Positions 2,076-56,940 of a DNA stretch of 64,000 nt are shown piece after piece. This DNA comes from Bradyrhizobium paxllaeri (lineage in GTDB: Bacteria; Pseudomonadota; Alphaproteobacteria; Rhizobiales; Xanthobacteraceae). The DNA lies in contig NZ_CP042968.1 in the NCBI RefSeq assembly GCF_001693515.2, positions 6,386,001-6,450,000 of the forward strand, read 5' to 3'. The notes beneath the pieces are model-generated. The model had not been told where the DNA came from, ran no database searches, and saw only the letters and a program-made list of their open reading frames with translations. Position 1 is the first letter of the stretch. Each line of letters begins with the position of its first letter. The position numbers and the translations under genes are program-made.

Positions 2076-2322
2076 CCGTGAGACGGGCGGAGTTATGCGG
2101 CTGATTTGGGTGAGAACGAAAGCGGAATATTTTTGCTTCCCGGGCTTGACACCATTTCTGAAAATCAGAAATGATTTGCCTTCGGGATATCTTGTCGCAG
2201 TTGCGCATCAAGAATTGTGCTTGCGGCAAATCAGTTCGCAGAACCGTAGATTCCATGAGGCGGTGAGCGTGGCCTTTCCGATAAGGTTTGGGTTTCCACA
2301 CTCGAACCCCTCGGAGAGTCAG

Positions 2323-3483
2323 ATGCAAGCATCCACCGTAGCCACGCCCACCGCCGGCCATATTGGCACAATTTTCGTTGCAATCGAACTGAGCCAGCGG
2401 AGCTGGCGGGTCGCGCTGCACAGCCCGGACAAGGACAAGATATCGCACCACAAGCTGGAGGGTGGCGATCATGCCGAGCTGTTGGCGTTGGTGGGTCGGG
2501 TTCGGGAGCGGGCGGCTCGAACGCTGGGAGGCGTTCCGGCGGTGGCGAGCTGCTACGAGGCGGGCTACGACGGGTTCTGGCTGCACCGGCTGCTGCTGGC
2601 GGCCGGCATCACGAACTACGTGTTTGATCCCGCCAGCATTGCGGTGGACCAGCGGGCGCGGCGGGTGAAGACCGACCGGATCGATGGCGAGCGGATGCTG
2701 CGCACGCTGATGGCGTATCTGCGCGGCGAGCCGCGGGTGGTGCGGATCGTCCGGGTGCCTGCAGCCGAACAGGAGGACGCCCGCCGCGGCAGCCGCGAAC
2801 GCGACCGGCTGATCAAGGAGCAAACCGCTCACACCAACCGGATCAAGGCACTGCTGCGGCTGCGGGGCATGGCGGTCGGGAACCCGCGGCGGCGCGACTG
2901 GCTGAGCTGGCTGGCAACGCAGCGGGATTGGCAAGGCCAGGCGGTGCCGCCGCGGATGCTGAGCGAGATCCGACACGAGCACGCGCGGCTGATGCTGGTG
3001 CGCGATCGGCTCGACGTGCTCGCGCAGGAGGCGGCCGCAGCGGAGCCAATGCCTGCGGAAGCCGAGATGACCCGGCGCAGCGAACTGCTGCGCCGGCTCA
3101 AATGTCTCGGCCCGGCGTTCGCGACGACGCTGACCAGCGAGGTGTTCTACAAGGACTTCCGCAATCGCCGCGAGGTCGGGAGTTATTTCGGACTGACGCC
3201 CAGTCCATGGCGGAGCGGCGGCATCGACCGCGACCAGGGCATCAGCAAGGCGGGCAACCCGCGCGCCCGCTGTGCCGCGATCGAACTGGCCTGGCTGTGG
3301 CTGCGGCATCAGCCGGACAGCAAGCTGACCTTGGAGTACCGCAAGCGCACGCTCGATGCCGGCAAGCGCATCAAGCGCGTCGCCATCGTCGCCCTGGCGC
3401 GCAAGCTGATGGTGGCGCTGTGGCGCTACCTCACGACCGGTCTCGTGCCGGAAGGCGCGGTGCTCAAGGCCGTAAAGATCTAA
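2323..3483 (+). CDS. IS110-family transposase (DEDD recombinase), copy A
   Basis: A 386-residue recombinase. The N-terminal RuvC-like half (about residues 18-170) has FVAIELS, CYEAGYDGFWLHRLL and KTDRIDGERM, supplying the acidic residues. The first acidic position is Glu in IELS. A coiled segment (about 140-230) precedes the C-terminal Transposase_20 half with PSPWRSGGIDRDQGISKAGN, which holds the conserved serine region. The start at 2323 has GGAGAG upstream; an in-frame ATG at 2254 lies within the element's left end and is less likely. The product is identical to the copy at 35246-36406. Known IS110 enzymes use a small RNA encoded by the element to choose donor and target. Confidence 0.95.
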   Translation: MQASTVATPTAGHIGTIFVAIELSQRSWRVALHSPDKDKISHHKLEGGDHAELLALVGRVRERAARTLGGVPAVASCYEAGYDGFWLHRLLLAAGITNYVFDPASIAVDQRARRVKTDRIDGERMLRTLMAYLRGEPRVVRIVRVPAAEQEDARRGSRERDRLIKEQTAHTNRIKALLRLRGMAVGNPRRRDWLSWLATQRDWQGQAVPPRMLSEIRHEHARLMLVRDRLDVLAQEAAAAEPMPAEAEMTRRSELLRRLKCLGPAFATTLTSEVFYKDFRNRREVGSYFGLTPSPWRSGGIDRDQGISKAGNPRARCAAIELAWLWLRHQPDSKLTLEYRKRTLDAGKRIKRVAIVALARKLMVALWRYLTTGLVPEGAVLKAVKI

Positions 3484-3499
3484 CCACTTTCAACGAACG

Positions 3500-3700
3500 C
3501 GTCAGCGTCGCGGCATCTGCCGCGGTCAGCGCGGGATGGATGGTGACCGTGCCACCCTTGGGCCAGCAAACAGGCTGTTTCGTAGATGGGTCTCATCCTC
3601 GTGGCTTCCTCGCCGCATGCATGCGGAATGTGGGTGCGGATCACAGCGGTCCGACCGGATATGAGGTGATGCAGTGAGCAACTGCATAAATCGCCGGAAG
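3500..3700 (+). ncRNA. Candidate bridge RNA (seekRNA) of IS copy A
   Basis: Non-coding 3' region of the IS. Four short segments match the four DNA half-sites around an AG core. CCACCCT (3552-3558) is the reverse complement of core plus right target AGGGTGG. CGTAG (3581-3585) equals left target plus core. GGAAT (3625-3629) is the reverse complement of the element's left end ATTCC. ATATGAG (3659-3665) equals the element's right end plus core. Small inverted repeats lie between or beside them (3568-3580, 3613-3626, 3670-3686). IS1111-group elements are known to encode their guide RNA downstream of the transposase. The exact RNA ends are not known. Transcription and function are inferred. Confidence 0.6.
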
Positions 3701-3828
3701 CCAGTCCCTGAGCGCACCGACCGCGGCGGCACGCTGCGCTACGCATGGCTCCGCGCGCCGCCGCTCCACCGAACGTAAAAATCACATCCAAGCCCTGTCG
3801 GGATGCTTGACTCAAAACGCCTCATATG

Positions 3829-3920
3829 AGGGTGGGCAAAGCGCAAGCGTGCCCACCATCGCGAAACGCGCTCGATGATAAATGGTGGGCACGTCGCTGG
3901 CGCTCCTTTGCCCACCCTAC
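3829..3920. repeat. Paired REP (BIME), GTAGGGTGGGC family, interrupted by IS copy A
   Basis: Two inverted REP units (AGGGTGGGCAAAGCGCAAGCG...GTGCCCACC and its mirror ending CCCACCCTAC). The missing first bases GT(AG) lie on the other side of the IS at 2246-2249, so the element was inserted at the outer edge of this pair. Other pairs of the family occur at 8379-8470, 17851-17942, 18437-18514 and 34812-34900, and single units flank the RAYT gene. Confidence 0.9.
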
Positions 3921-22685: not shown

Positions 22686-22717
22686 GTAGGGTGGGCAAAG
22701 CGAAGCGTGCCCACCAT
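22686..22717 (+). repeat. REP unit, left border of the RAYT gene
   Basis: GTAGGGTGGGCAAAGCGAAG followed by CGTGCCCACC. It is the mirror of the unit at 23277-23307. Its edge lies next to the RAYT stop codon (22719-22721). Confidence 0.9.
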
Positions 22718-22718
22718 T

Positions 22719-23240
22719 CTATTCGCCGAATGCCCCCTTGATGTCGTGCAGATCGCCACCCCAATCCTCGGCGAGCACTCCTCGATCTACATAACGGTGG
22801 AAACTGCTATGCGGCCAATCGGATACGCGCGTGACATACCCATGCTTCACCGGGTTGAAATGAATGTAATCGACATGACGTTCGAAATCTTCGTCATCTC
22901 GAATTGCATGTTCCCAGTAACGGCGCTGCCAGATGCCTTTTTCTCGTTTGGCGACCTTACTCTTTGATCTGGCTTGAGCGTCGAGGCCGCGCGAAAATCC
23001 ACTCTTTATAAGGCTCCACCGCGTAGAAAAATCTGCGCCGCCGTCCGGCAATGCCCAAAGCGCGTGAATATGATCCGGTAGGACACAGATCGCGATTGTT
23101 TCAAATGGGTGTTGTCGTTGAACGGTCTGATAGATGCGCCTTAGGCGATCGACTTCTTCAACCAATAACGCGCTCGGTCGCTGCGCGAGGACGACGGTGA
23201 AGAAGAAGATGCTGCCCTTGGCACGAACATATCGCGGCAT
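22719..23240 (-). CDS. REP-associated tyrosine transposase (RAYT, Y1 transposase-like)
   Basis: A 173-residue single-strand transposase of the IS200/IS605-related Y1 superfamily. The HUH motif is in CVLPDHIHALWALPDGG, and the presumed nucleophile tyrosine is in DYIHFNPVKHGYV, a hallmark of RAYTs. The gene is bounded on both sides by REP units in inverted orientation (22686-22717 and 23277-23307). This is the REPtron layout thought to spread REPs through a genome. The length is at the short end for RAYTs, but both catalytic motifs are present. It is a domesticated-type enzyme and not a classic insertion sequence. Confidence 0.93.
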   Translation of the reverse strand: MPRYVRAKGSIFFFTVVLAQRPSALLVEEVDRLRRIYQTVQRQHPFETIAICVLPDHIHALWALPDGGADFSTRWSLIKSGFSRGLDAQARSKSKVAKREKGIWQRRYWEHAIRDDEDFERHVDYIHFNPVKHGYVTRVSDWPHSSFHRYVDRGVLAEDWGGDLHDIKGAFGE

Positions 23241-23276: not shown

Positions 23277-23307
23277 TGGTGGGCACGCTTCGCTTTGCCC
23301 ACCCTAC
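23277..23307 (-). repeat. REP unit, right border of the RAYT gene
   Basis: TGGTGGGCACGCTTCGCTTT followed by GCCCACCCTAC, the inverse of the left border unit, 36 bp upstream of the RAYT start codon. On the other side the sulfatase-like gene ends at 23332. Confidence 0.9.
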
Positions 23308-34811: not shown

Positions 34812-34900
34812 GTAGGGTGGGCAAAGGCGCATCGCGCCGTGCCCACCATCTCTCCCAGGCGTCACCGTTAGTGGTGGGCACGCTGCGCTTTGCCCACCCT
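34812..34900. repeat. Paired REP (BIME), interrupted by IS copy B
   Basis: GTAGGGTGGGCAAAGGCGC at the left, and GCGCTTTGCCCACCCT at the right running into IS copy B. The missing terminal AC lies beyond the element at 36482-36483. The interruption point is the same base step as for IS copy A. Confidence 0.92.
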
Positions 34901-35028
34901 CATATGAGGCGTTTTGAGTCAAGCATCCCGACAGGGCTTGGATGTGATTTTTACGTTCGGTGGAGCGGCGGCGCGCGGAGCCATGCGTAGCGCAGCGTGC
35001 CGCCGCGGTCGGTGCGCTCAGGGACTGG

Positions 35029-35229
35029 CTTCCGGCGATTTATGCAGTTGCTCACTGCATCACCTCATATCCGGTCGGACCGCTGTGATCCGCACCCACA
35101 TTCCGCATGCATGCGGCGAGGAAGCCACGAGGATGAGACCCATCTACGAAACAGCCTGTTTGCTGGCCCAAGGGTGGCACGGTCACCATCCATCCCGCGC
35201 TGACCGCGGCAGATGCCGCGACGCTGACG
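35029..35229 (-). ncRNA. Candidate bridge RNA (seekRNA) of IS copy B
   Basis: The counterpart of the candidate at 3500-3700. The guide-like segments fall at 35171-35177 (right target), 35144-35148 (left target), 35100-35104 (element left end) and 35064-35070 (element right end). The same sequence-level evidence applies; transcription has not been observed. Confidence 0.58.
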
Positions 35230-35245
35230 CGTTCGTTGAAAGTGG

Positions 35246-36406
35246 TTAGATCTTTACGGCCTTGAGCACCGCGCCTTCCGGCACGAGACCGGTCGTGAGG
35301 TAGCGCCACAGCGCCACCATCAGCTTGCGCGCCAGGGCGACGATGGCGACGCGCTTGATGCGCTTGCCGGCATCGAGCGTGCGCTTGCGGTACTCCAAGG
35401 TCAGCTTGCTGTCCGGCTGATGCCGCAGCCACAGCCAGGCCAGTTCGATCGCGGCACAGCGGGCGCGCGGGTTGCCCGCCTTGCTGATGCCCTGGTCGCG
35501 GTCGATGCCGCCGCTCCGCCATGGACTGGGCGTCAGTCCGAAATAACTCCCGACCTCGCGGCGATTGCGGAAGTCCTTGTAGAACACCTCGCTGGTCAGC
35601 GTCGTCGCGAACGCCGGGCCGAGACATTTGAGCCGGCGCAGCAGTTCGCTGCGCCGGGTCATCTCGGCTTCCGCAGGCATTGGCTCCGCTGCGGCCGCCT
35701 CCTGCGCGAGCACGTCGAGCCGATCGCGCACCAGCATCAGCCGCGCGTGCTCGTGTCGGATCTCGCTCAGCATCCGCGGCGGCACCGCCTGGCCTTGCCA
35801 ATCCCGCTGCGTTGCCAGCCAGCTCAGCCAGTCGCGCCGCCGCGGGTTCCCGACCGCCATGCCCCGCAGCCGCAGCAGTGCCTTGATCCGGTTGGTGTGA
35901 GCGGTTTGCTCCTTGATCAGCCGGTCGCGTTCGCGGCTGCCGCGGCGGGCGTCCTCCTGTTCGGCTGCAGGCACCCGGACGATCCGCACCACCCGCGGCT
36001 CGCCGCGCAGATACGCCATCAGCGTGCGCAGCATCCGCTCGCCATCGATCCGGTCGGTCTTCACCCGCCGCGCCCGCTGGTCCACCGCAATGCTGGCGGG
36101 ATCAAACACGTAGTTCGTGATGCCGGCCGCCAGCAGCAGCCGGTGCAGCCAGAACCCGTCGTAGCCCGCCTCGTAGCAGCTCGCCACCGCCGGAACGCCT
36201 CCCAGCGTTCGAGCCGCCCGCTCCCGAACCCGACCCACCAACGCCAACAGCTCGGCATGATCGCCACCCTCCAGCTTGTGGTGCGATATCTTGTCCTTGT
36301 CCGGGCTGTGCAGCGCGACCCGCCAGCTCCGCTGGCTCAGTTCGATTGCAACGAAAATTGTGCCAATATGGCCGGCGGTGGGCGTGGCTACGGTGGATGC
36401 TTGCAT
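35246..36406 (-). CDS. IS110-family transposase (DEDD recombinase), copy B
   Basis: 386 residues, identical to the transposase of copy A and intact, with the same start context (GGAGAG before ATG). Its presence with an intact reading frame in both copies suggests recent activity or gene conversion. See copy A for domains. Confidence 0.95.
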   Translation of the reverse strand: MQASTVATPTAGHIGTIFVAIELSQRSWRVALHSPDKDKISHHKLEGGDHAELLALVGRVRERAARTLGGVPAVASCYEAGYDGFWLHRLLLAAGITNYVFDPASIAVDQRARRVKTDRIDGERMLRTLMAYLRGEPRVVRIVRVPAAEQEDARRGSRERDRLIKEQTAHTNRIKALLRLRGMAVGNPRRRDWLSWLATQRDWQGQAVPPRMLSEIRHEHARLMLVRDRLDVLAQEAAAAEPMPAEAEMTRRSELLRRLKCLGPAFATTLTSEVFYKDFRNRREVGSYFGLTPSPWRSGGIDRDQGISKAGNPRARCAAIELAWLWLRHQPDSKLTLEYRKRTLDAGKRIKRVAIVALARKLMVALWRYLTTGLVPEGAVLKAVKI

Positions 36407-36499
36407 CTGACTCTCCGAGGGGTTCGAGTGTGGAAACCCAAACCTTATCGGAAAGGCCACGCTCACCGCCTCATGGAATCTACCAGACCGGCGCTTGCC

Positions 36500-37558
<1,059 letters not shown>

Positions 37559-56192: not shown

Positions 56193-56584
56193 CGATACTC
56201 CTCCCCCAAAAGGCGGATACGCCCGCTTGTTTGGATAACTTGAAAGCTTGTCCCGGAAACTTGCTAGCGACTTTCGTCGGACAACGCCAGCAAAACCAAA
56301 AACGGTTTTGGGCCGAACGGCAAATGACGCCTCAAGACCATAATCAAGCCCGCCGACGGGCCACCGACCGCAACCATTGCGATTGCATCGCCGCAGTACC
56401 CCCGGACGACGGGCCATTAGGCTGCACGACCCGCGCTGGCCGGGCTAGCACGGATGCGGGCCCCGGAGGTCCACGACGCCCATTACATTTCGGCAATGAT
56501 CGAATCCGTGGCGAAACCGCAACTGGACGACATCAAACCGAAAGTCCAGGGCCTCGTTCCGGTCCCGTTCAGCGTCCTCGGCCC
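56193..56584. other. Gene-free stretch upstream of the tmRNA gene
   Basis: About 390 bp between tctB and the ssrA promoter. No supported gene, repeat or RNA was found. Short frames here have no family resemblance. Confidence 0.5.
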
Positions 56585-56613
56585 TGTTTTTCTTCCGACT
56601 TGCACCCTATATT
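56585..56613 (+). promoter_or_regulatory. Possible promoter of ssrA
   Basis: TATATT at 56608-56613 is a good -10 box. The -35 candidate TGTTTT (56585-56590) at 17-bp spacing is poor. Placement about 30-50 bp before the acceptor piece is right. Low certainty on the -35. Confidence 0.4.
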
Positions 56614-56639
56614 GGGCGTGCCGGTTCGCCGGCTATGGA

Positions 56640-56940
56640 AATAAATGACCGTCGCAATAAACCATTCGGACCCGGGGGCAGTACCCGGCGCCTCCACCGA
56701 AGCCCACCCCGAAAGGGTTGGGTTCCGGCGGGGGCGAAACAGGATCGACGAGGGCGTAAAGGGCGCGTTTTTTCTCGGTATGGTTCCGCCGATATCGGGC
56801 CATGCAATAGTTGCAAACGACAACTATGCTCCGGTTGCTCAGGCTGCGTAACGCAGTTTGAAAGACCAATCTAAAGTCCTAGCGGGTTAAGCTCCGCTAG
56901 GCGGGGTCCGGAGGCACCTGGCAACAGAAGCCTCCACTTA
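56640..56940 (+). ncRNA. ssrA: Transfer-messenger RNA, permuted two-piece type
   Basis: Circularly permuted alphaproteobacterial ssrA. The acceptor piece comes first (ending GGCGCCTCCACC near 56698), then a short loop segment. The coding piece follows, starting GGGGGCGAAACAGGATCGACG (about 56731). GGGGGCG can pair with CGCCTCC of the acceptor piece. The tag frame 56813-56851 reads ANDNYAPVAQAA then TAA. Downstream helices CCTAGCGG/CCGCTAGG and GGAGGC/GCCTCC complete the fold. It rescues stalled ribosomes and marks peptides for ClpXP. The exact ends are approximate. Confidence 0.93.

Follow-up and report, generated by a model that had tools for sequence, protein, structure and literature searches.

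How does an insertion sequence of Bradyrhizobium paxllaeri come to lie, copy after copy, at one point of a host repeat? RNA-guided target choice has already been published for such elements, as the seekRNA mechanism for IS1111 (PMC11187229) and the bridge-RNA mechanism for IS110 (PMC11208160, PMC11208158), and REP sequences are already known as targets of IS621, ISPa11, ISPpu9, ISPpu10 and ISRm19 (for the last three, PMC1525189). Within the window, which is the whole stretch of 64,000 nucleotides analysed here, the non-coding tail of one such element has a sequence that is very probably the template of an IS1111-type bridge RNA (seekRNA), which would pair with a REP target and with the ends of the element. 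Since four guides match the REP and the element's own ends, the element very likely picks its landing site by means of this RNA. The element and its surroundings comprise the following features:

2248–3828, forward strand: IS1111-type insertion sequence, 1581 bp including the left AG core, with ends taken from its copies and homologues
2255–2262, forward strand: left subterminal inverted repeat, ATGAGGCG
2323–3483, forward strand: recombinase gene, 386 aa, matching PF01548, PF02371 and NF033542, with acidic residues E22, E79, D118 and D121 and with S298
3818–3825, forward strand: right subterminal inverted repeat, CGCCTCAT
3829–3920, forward strand: inverted REP pair, one member of which is cut by the insertion (palindrome from 3829) while the other is intact (3906–3920, minus strand)
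34901–36481, reverse strand: second copy of the element, likewise inserted in a REP; an intact REP lies at 34812–34826

The bounds 2248–3828 were set by the IS1111 convention, in which 7 bp and 3 bp lie outside the subterminal repeats (PMC11187229). The left end reads AGATTCC-ATGAGGCG, with 7 bp outside the repeat, and the right end reads CGCCTCAT-ATG, with 3 bp outside, after which the AG core recurs at 3829–3830. A generic inverted-repeat search around the gene had returned mostly chance pairs, and the ends were then taken by motif. The element also has the downstream non-coding tail typical of IS1111 members (345 nt, 3484–3828), and its subterminal repeat of 8 bp is below the usual 11–13 bp. 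It may already carry a name.

The genome consists of one contig of 8,377,719 bases and holds 21 near-full copies of the element at 98–100% identity, two of them in the window; plasmid records gave two partial matches. In all 21 the insertion point is GT^AG in a REP that bears the GTAG tag. The right junction with the REP is exact in 20 and carries an extra G in one, and a genome-wide count of the exact junction CATATGAGGGTGGGC likewise gives 20, one for every copy except that one. Of 20 copies whose flanks were read, 17 have a left flank ending in CGT, and the rest have GGT, TGT or CAT there. Over the guide stretch, the tails of these 20 copies fall into five versions, with both target guides identical throughout. 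The second copy in the window stands about 20 bp past a TAA that seemingly closes a coding sequence (36481–36502).

The targeted host repeat is a GTAG-tagged REP. The sequence GTAGGGTGGGCAAAG occurs exactly 229 times in the genome, and the same pattern read backwards not once; the palindrome GTGGGCAAAG..GTGCCCACCA occurs 232 times, and many of the palindrome matches listed form inverted pairs about 75 bp apart. Bradyrhizobium REP families GTAG-3 and GTAG-14 are named in PMC3733652, and two other REPs of the genus are described in PMC5082802. We found the REP in 56 of 60 sampled genomes of the genus, B. paxllaeri included, and the element's exact right junction in eight of the 60. In the open-licence literature, no paper was found that treats IS110 elements of Bradyrhizobium together with REPs or target sites.

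The recombinase passes the cut-offs of PF01548 and PF02371, as expected of the IS110 family, and scores 189.4 bits against NF033542 (‘IS110 family RNA-guided transposase’; cut-off 140). It departs from the family in the first residue of the catalytic tetrad, where the Asp of DEDD is replaced by E22 (codon 2386–2388). Among 89 aligned homologues of at least 41% identity, near duplicates among them, this position is Glu in 88 and Asp in one (L033), and the remaining catalytic residues E79, D118 and D121, along with S298 and G299, are present in all 89. Asp stands first in all 13 readable outside relatives (16 matches, three of them gapped) and in two further loci (2 of 10 with a readable frame). 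Judged by the motif, IS621 itself lying outside the alignment, E22 would correspond to D11 of IS621, a metal ligand whose mutation abolishes recombination (PMC11208158). We argue that the E-E-D-D form is probably active, because the element is present in many near-identical copies. The clade in which Glu replaces the first Asp is possibly new, a search of the open-licence literature for IS110 elements with EEDD having found nothing, and the altered catalytic residue makes it directly testable. A sequence search of solved structures with the recombinase gave two chance matches only (E 0.7).

Within the tail, four short segments had been proposed in the preliminary description as guides:

3552–3558, forward strand: right target guide CCACCCT, the complement of AGGGTGG
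3581–3585, forward strand: left target guide CGTAG, which has the sequence of the top strand and pairs with the bottom strand
3625–3629, forward strand: right donor guide GGAAT, the complement of the left end ATTCC
3659–3665, forward strand: left donor guide ATATGAG, identical to the element's right end followed by the core

Each segment is found at this position and once only within 3484–3828. The proposal had relied on the ordered set rather than on single matches. In 20,000 dinucleotide-preserving shuffles of 3484–3828, CCACCCT appeared in 1.4%, CGTAG in 10.9%, GGAAT in 29.3% and ATATGAG in 0.8%, the target pair with its order and spacing in 0.01% (two shuffles), and the ordered four in none. 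Because the segments had been picked with the sequence in view, the tests in homologues are the stronger evidence.

For these, 130 loci matching the recombinase were reduced to 119 that are at least 40% identical, to 109 in which the left end was found, to 60 that passed a filter on the ends blind to the guides, and to 44 after identical tails had been merged; the window's own element accounts for five of these 44, in different versions. Covariation among the homologues shows that guides match targets and ends: where the target differs, the segments mostly change to match it, where the ends differ, the donor segments change with them, and homologues at different targets do not simply keep the same guides. 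With one element for each of 26 distinct targets, own matches of the right target guide sum to 170 (permuted mean 141.1, sd 3.6, highest 157) and those of the left target guide to 144 (113.4, sd 3.2, highest 129), so that the own-target sum was reached in none of 20,000 permutations for either guide, although permutations overstate independence because the elements are related.

Two further analyses bear on the target guides. When each whole tail was searched freely for guides fitting its own target or the unlike targets of other elements, the own target beat every other in 17 of the 44 (five of these being the element's own versions), was matched or beaten by one or two in 11, and did worse in 16. 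Among these 16, three have a left flank cut by a contig end, and three more (L081, L028 and L128) may have wrongly placed ends. In addition, we aligned 25 tails without target information and scanned every column against target positions −7 to +9 minus the core. The top three pairs, by identity (column 85 with −1, 84 with −2 and 82 with −3), are the predicted left-guide diagonal, and ranks four to six, by complement (53/+6, 56/+3 and 57/+3), lie in the right guide. More right-guide matches (57/+2, 52/+7, 51/+8, 55/+2, 56/+2 and 55/+3) fall on or beside the diagonal, spread over its neighbours because clades are offset by one column; ranks 7, 8, 10 and 11 (columns 218, 182, 19 and 152) fall outside the guides. 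At the guide sites themselves, in counts made with small shifts allowed and without a control of their own, the right guide matches at least six of seven letters in 21 of the 25 tails (fewer in L088, L107, L099 and L126) and the left guide at least four of five in 24 (three in L088). On the guide reading, the natural tail is predicted to direct insertion into CGTAGGGTGGGC, not CGTAGCCCGGAT.

The donor guides were followed through 40 elements, among which 13 combinations of ends occur. At the place of ATATGAG, 37 of the 40 have a segment identical to their own right end followed by AG, with 269 of 280 letters matching (permuted mean 232.0, sd 4.4; none of 20,000 permutations as good). The segment was not found in L081, L028 and L128, whose ends may be wrong because no left donor guide was found; in L106 the right core is AA. 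For the right donor guide, read at its place ahead of the left one, 177 of 200 letters match against 168.5 when permuted, with 20 of 20,000 permutations as good. Elements ending in ATTCC have GGAAT in 8 of 15 cases, GGAA plus another base in six and GGGAT in one; those with ATCCC have GGGAT in six of eight, two being unplaced; both with ATGCT have AGCAT; and 10 of the 12 with ATCCT have GGGAT, with one G-T wobble. The guides thus covary with the donor ends as expected of a seekRNA or bridge RNA, the right donor guide being the weakest of the four and moderately supported, which adds covariation evidence for donor guides within the IS1111 group.

The main competitor to a full set of four guides is that the target half alone guides, with the donor segments kept for folding or protein binding and the protein reading the subterminal repeats. 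The available parts of PMC11187229 describe target matches, with an 82-nt form sufficing for ISEc11, and the right donor guide is the one that covaries least; yet 3659–3665 tracks the right end in those 37 of 40 elements, 3625–3629 tracks the left-end classes, and PMC11208160 points to possible donor-binding nucleotides in IS1111 multiloops. We consider this account unlikely.

The same genome carries a second IS1111 element, in four copies (L163–L166), with a recombinase 51% identical to the first. Its tail has the right guide CCGGGCT and the left guide CGTAG, and all four copies lie at GT^AG of another palindrome, AGCCCGGATG, with left flanks of CGT in two and TGT in two; the second REP, GTAGCCCGGATGGAGC, occurs 29 times in the genome. 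The two elements thus have in common the left guide, which reads the tag present in both REPs, and differ in the right guide, which is directed at the stem; the left donor guide, ATACAAG, differs as well. None of the 25 copies of the two elements lies in the other's REP. In genome G235 of the same genus, the one copy of the first kind and the two of the second (L228–L229) that were read each lie in their own REP, one of these REPs being a CCCGGGTG variant. The pair is in effect a natural experiment in bridge-RNA programming, with the same host and left guide, a swapped right guide and different donor guides, and this second element, with its kept CGTAG, other right guide and second REP family, is possibly new.

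That the matches are due to chance, or are a relic of captured REP sequence while the protein alone selects the target, is very improbable. Single matches are indeed short, GGAAT arising in 29% and CGTAG in 11% of shuffles, but the ordered set arose in none of the 20,000, homologue guides covary with targets and ends, and the second element changes guide and REP together.

The fold of the tail bears on how such guides could be presented:

3538–3598, forward strand: target-binding hairpin of the predicted bridge RNA, from a consensus fold with compensatory changes

Here a basal stem (3538–3548 with 3589–3598), which shows compensatory changes across homologues, and an apical stem (3561–3563 with 3574–3576), seen in the consensus fold, enclose the two target guides. 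In the stem of the target loop, 98.1% of cells are paired, against 94.5% when shuffled and 26–58% when slid, the structure having come from the same alignment. Of the two internal loops envisaged in the preliminary description, the target loop is borne out, framed by this stem; the donor part is not a plain internal loop, its guides instead flanking a GGT/ACC stem inside a larger multiloop. Possible donor-binding nucleotides within a multiloop are described for IS1111 in PMC11208160. RNAalifold reduces the donor stem to this GGT/ACC part, and single folds suggest that it continues in a register that shifts between clades. The stability of the tail fold is unremarkable (z of −1.0 and −1.4).

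That the tail serves mainly as a regulatory structure at the 3′ end of the recombinase mRNA, with the base matches secondary, is the least credible of the alternatives: the tail does start right after the stop codon, but two tmRNA models were the only Rfam matches in the whole window at gathering cut-offs, and the hairpin's most variable places are those matching the target. A riboswitch or attenuator in the tail was set aside, there being no Rfam family and target covariation explaining the variable places. The alphaproteobacterial tmRNA at 56581–56938 (RF01849, 305.9 bits) is ordinary.

According to the bridge-RNA model, the element would be excised in circular form, and the joining of its ends would create a promoter, as reported for the ISEc11 junction (PMC11187229); the conserved TTGAC half of such a promoter is present:

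3807–3812, forward strand: TTGACT, the likely −35 half of the promoter formed on end joining in the circle

Of 40 elements, 37 have TTGA[CT] close to their right end, compared with 8 of 456 control windows, in agreement with the ISEc11 junction promoter. By analogy with the family, an RNA would be transcribed from the 3′ non-coding tail and bound by the recombinase, which would carry out catalysis. The first loop would pair with both REP strands around the AG core, CCACCCT with AGGGTGG of the top strand and CGTAG with the bottom strand, and the second part with the joined element ends, GGAAT with ATTCC and ATATGAG with the right end. All copies would then end up in a single orientation at GT^AG in the REP tag, through recombination at the core.

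This arrangement is closest to the ISPa11/IS1111 seekRNA group (PMC11187229), with which it shares the downstream tail, the 7 and 3 bp outside the repeats, a REP target (that of ISPa11), and a top-strand complement lying 5′ of the bottom-strand match. In contrast to that group as described, REP and host are other ones here, the tetrad is E-E-D-D instead of D-E-D-D, donor guides are assigned, and the repeat has 8 bp instead of 11–13. IS621 of the IS110 group (PMC11208160, PMC11208158) likewise has target and donor guides around a dinucleotide core and a REP target, whereas its RNA lies upstream of the gene, the guide order is reversed, and the donor guides occupy an internal loop instead of a multiloop. 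Its published target, ATCAGGC-CT-AC (PMC11208160), reads GT-AG-GCCTGAT on the other strand, which again is GT^AG in the tag of a REP. Counting IS621 by this target together with both elements here, GT^AG of REP tags is suggested to be a repeated landing site. ISPpu9, ISPpu10 and ISRm19 of the IS110 family also have all copies at one REP point, in other hosts and REPs; PMC1525189 makes no mention of Bradyrhizobium.

Finally, the REPs lead to the transposases associated with them:

22719–23240, reverse strand: REP-associated tyrosine transposase gene, 173 aa (NF047646, 190.7 bits, cut-off 80)

This gene lies between inverted copies of the first REP, at 22686–22700 (plus) and 23293–23307 (minus). 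The genome has two Y1_Tnp matches, both scoring as REP-associated tyrosine transposase, and the second gene lies between two copies of the second REP. The association of each REP family with a transposase gene of this kind, which it flanks, is possibly a new observation. The E. coli enzyme contacts the GTAG tag (PMC6006769), and after insertion the palindrome is preceded by TGAG (first element) or CAAG (second element); because GTAG is so replaced, a cut REP should be lost to the REP transposase. We put forward, tentatively and as somewhat doubtful, that the two elements are matched one-to-one to two REP systems, as a half-reprogrammed bridge RNA of an E-E-D-D clade set against the substrate of a domesticated transposase. 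The shared left guide would serve the GTAG tag and the different right guides the family-specific stems, and landing at GT^AG, by swapping GTAG for other letters, would put the palindrome beyond the REP transposase's reach. Six other genomes with the first element gave 12 matches to the REP-associated transposase family, in five of the six and some of them gene pieces; two have the first REP on both sides, two the second REP on both sides, one the second REP on one side, and seven neither.
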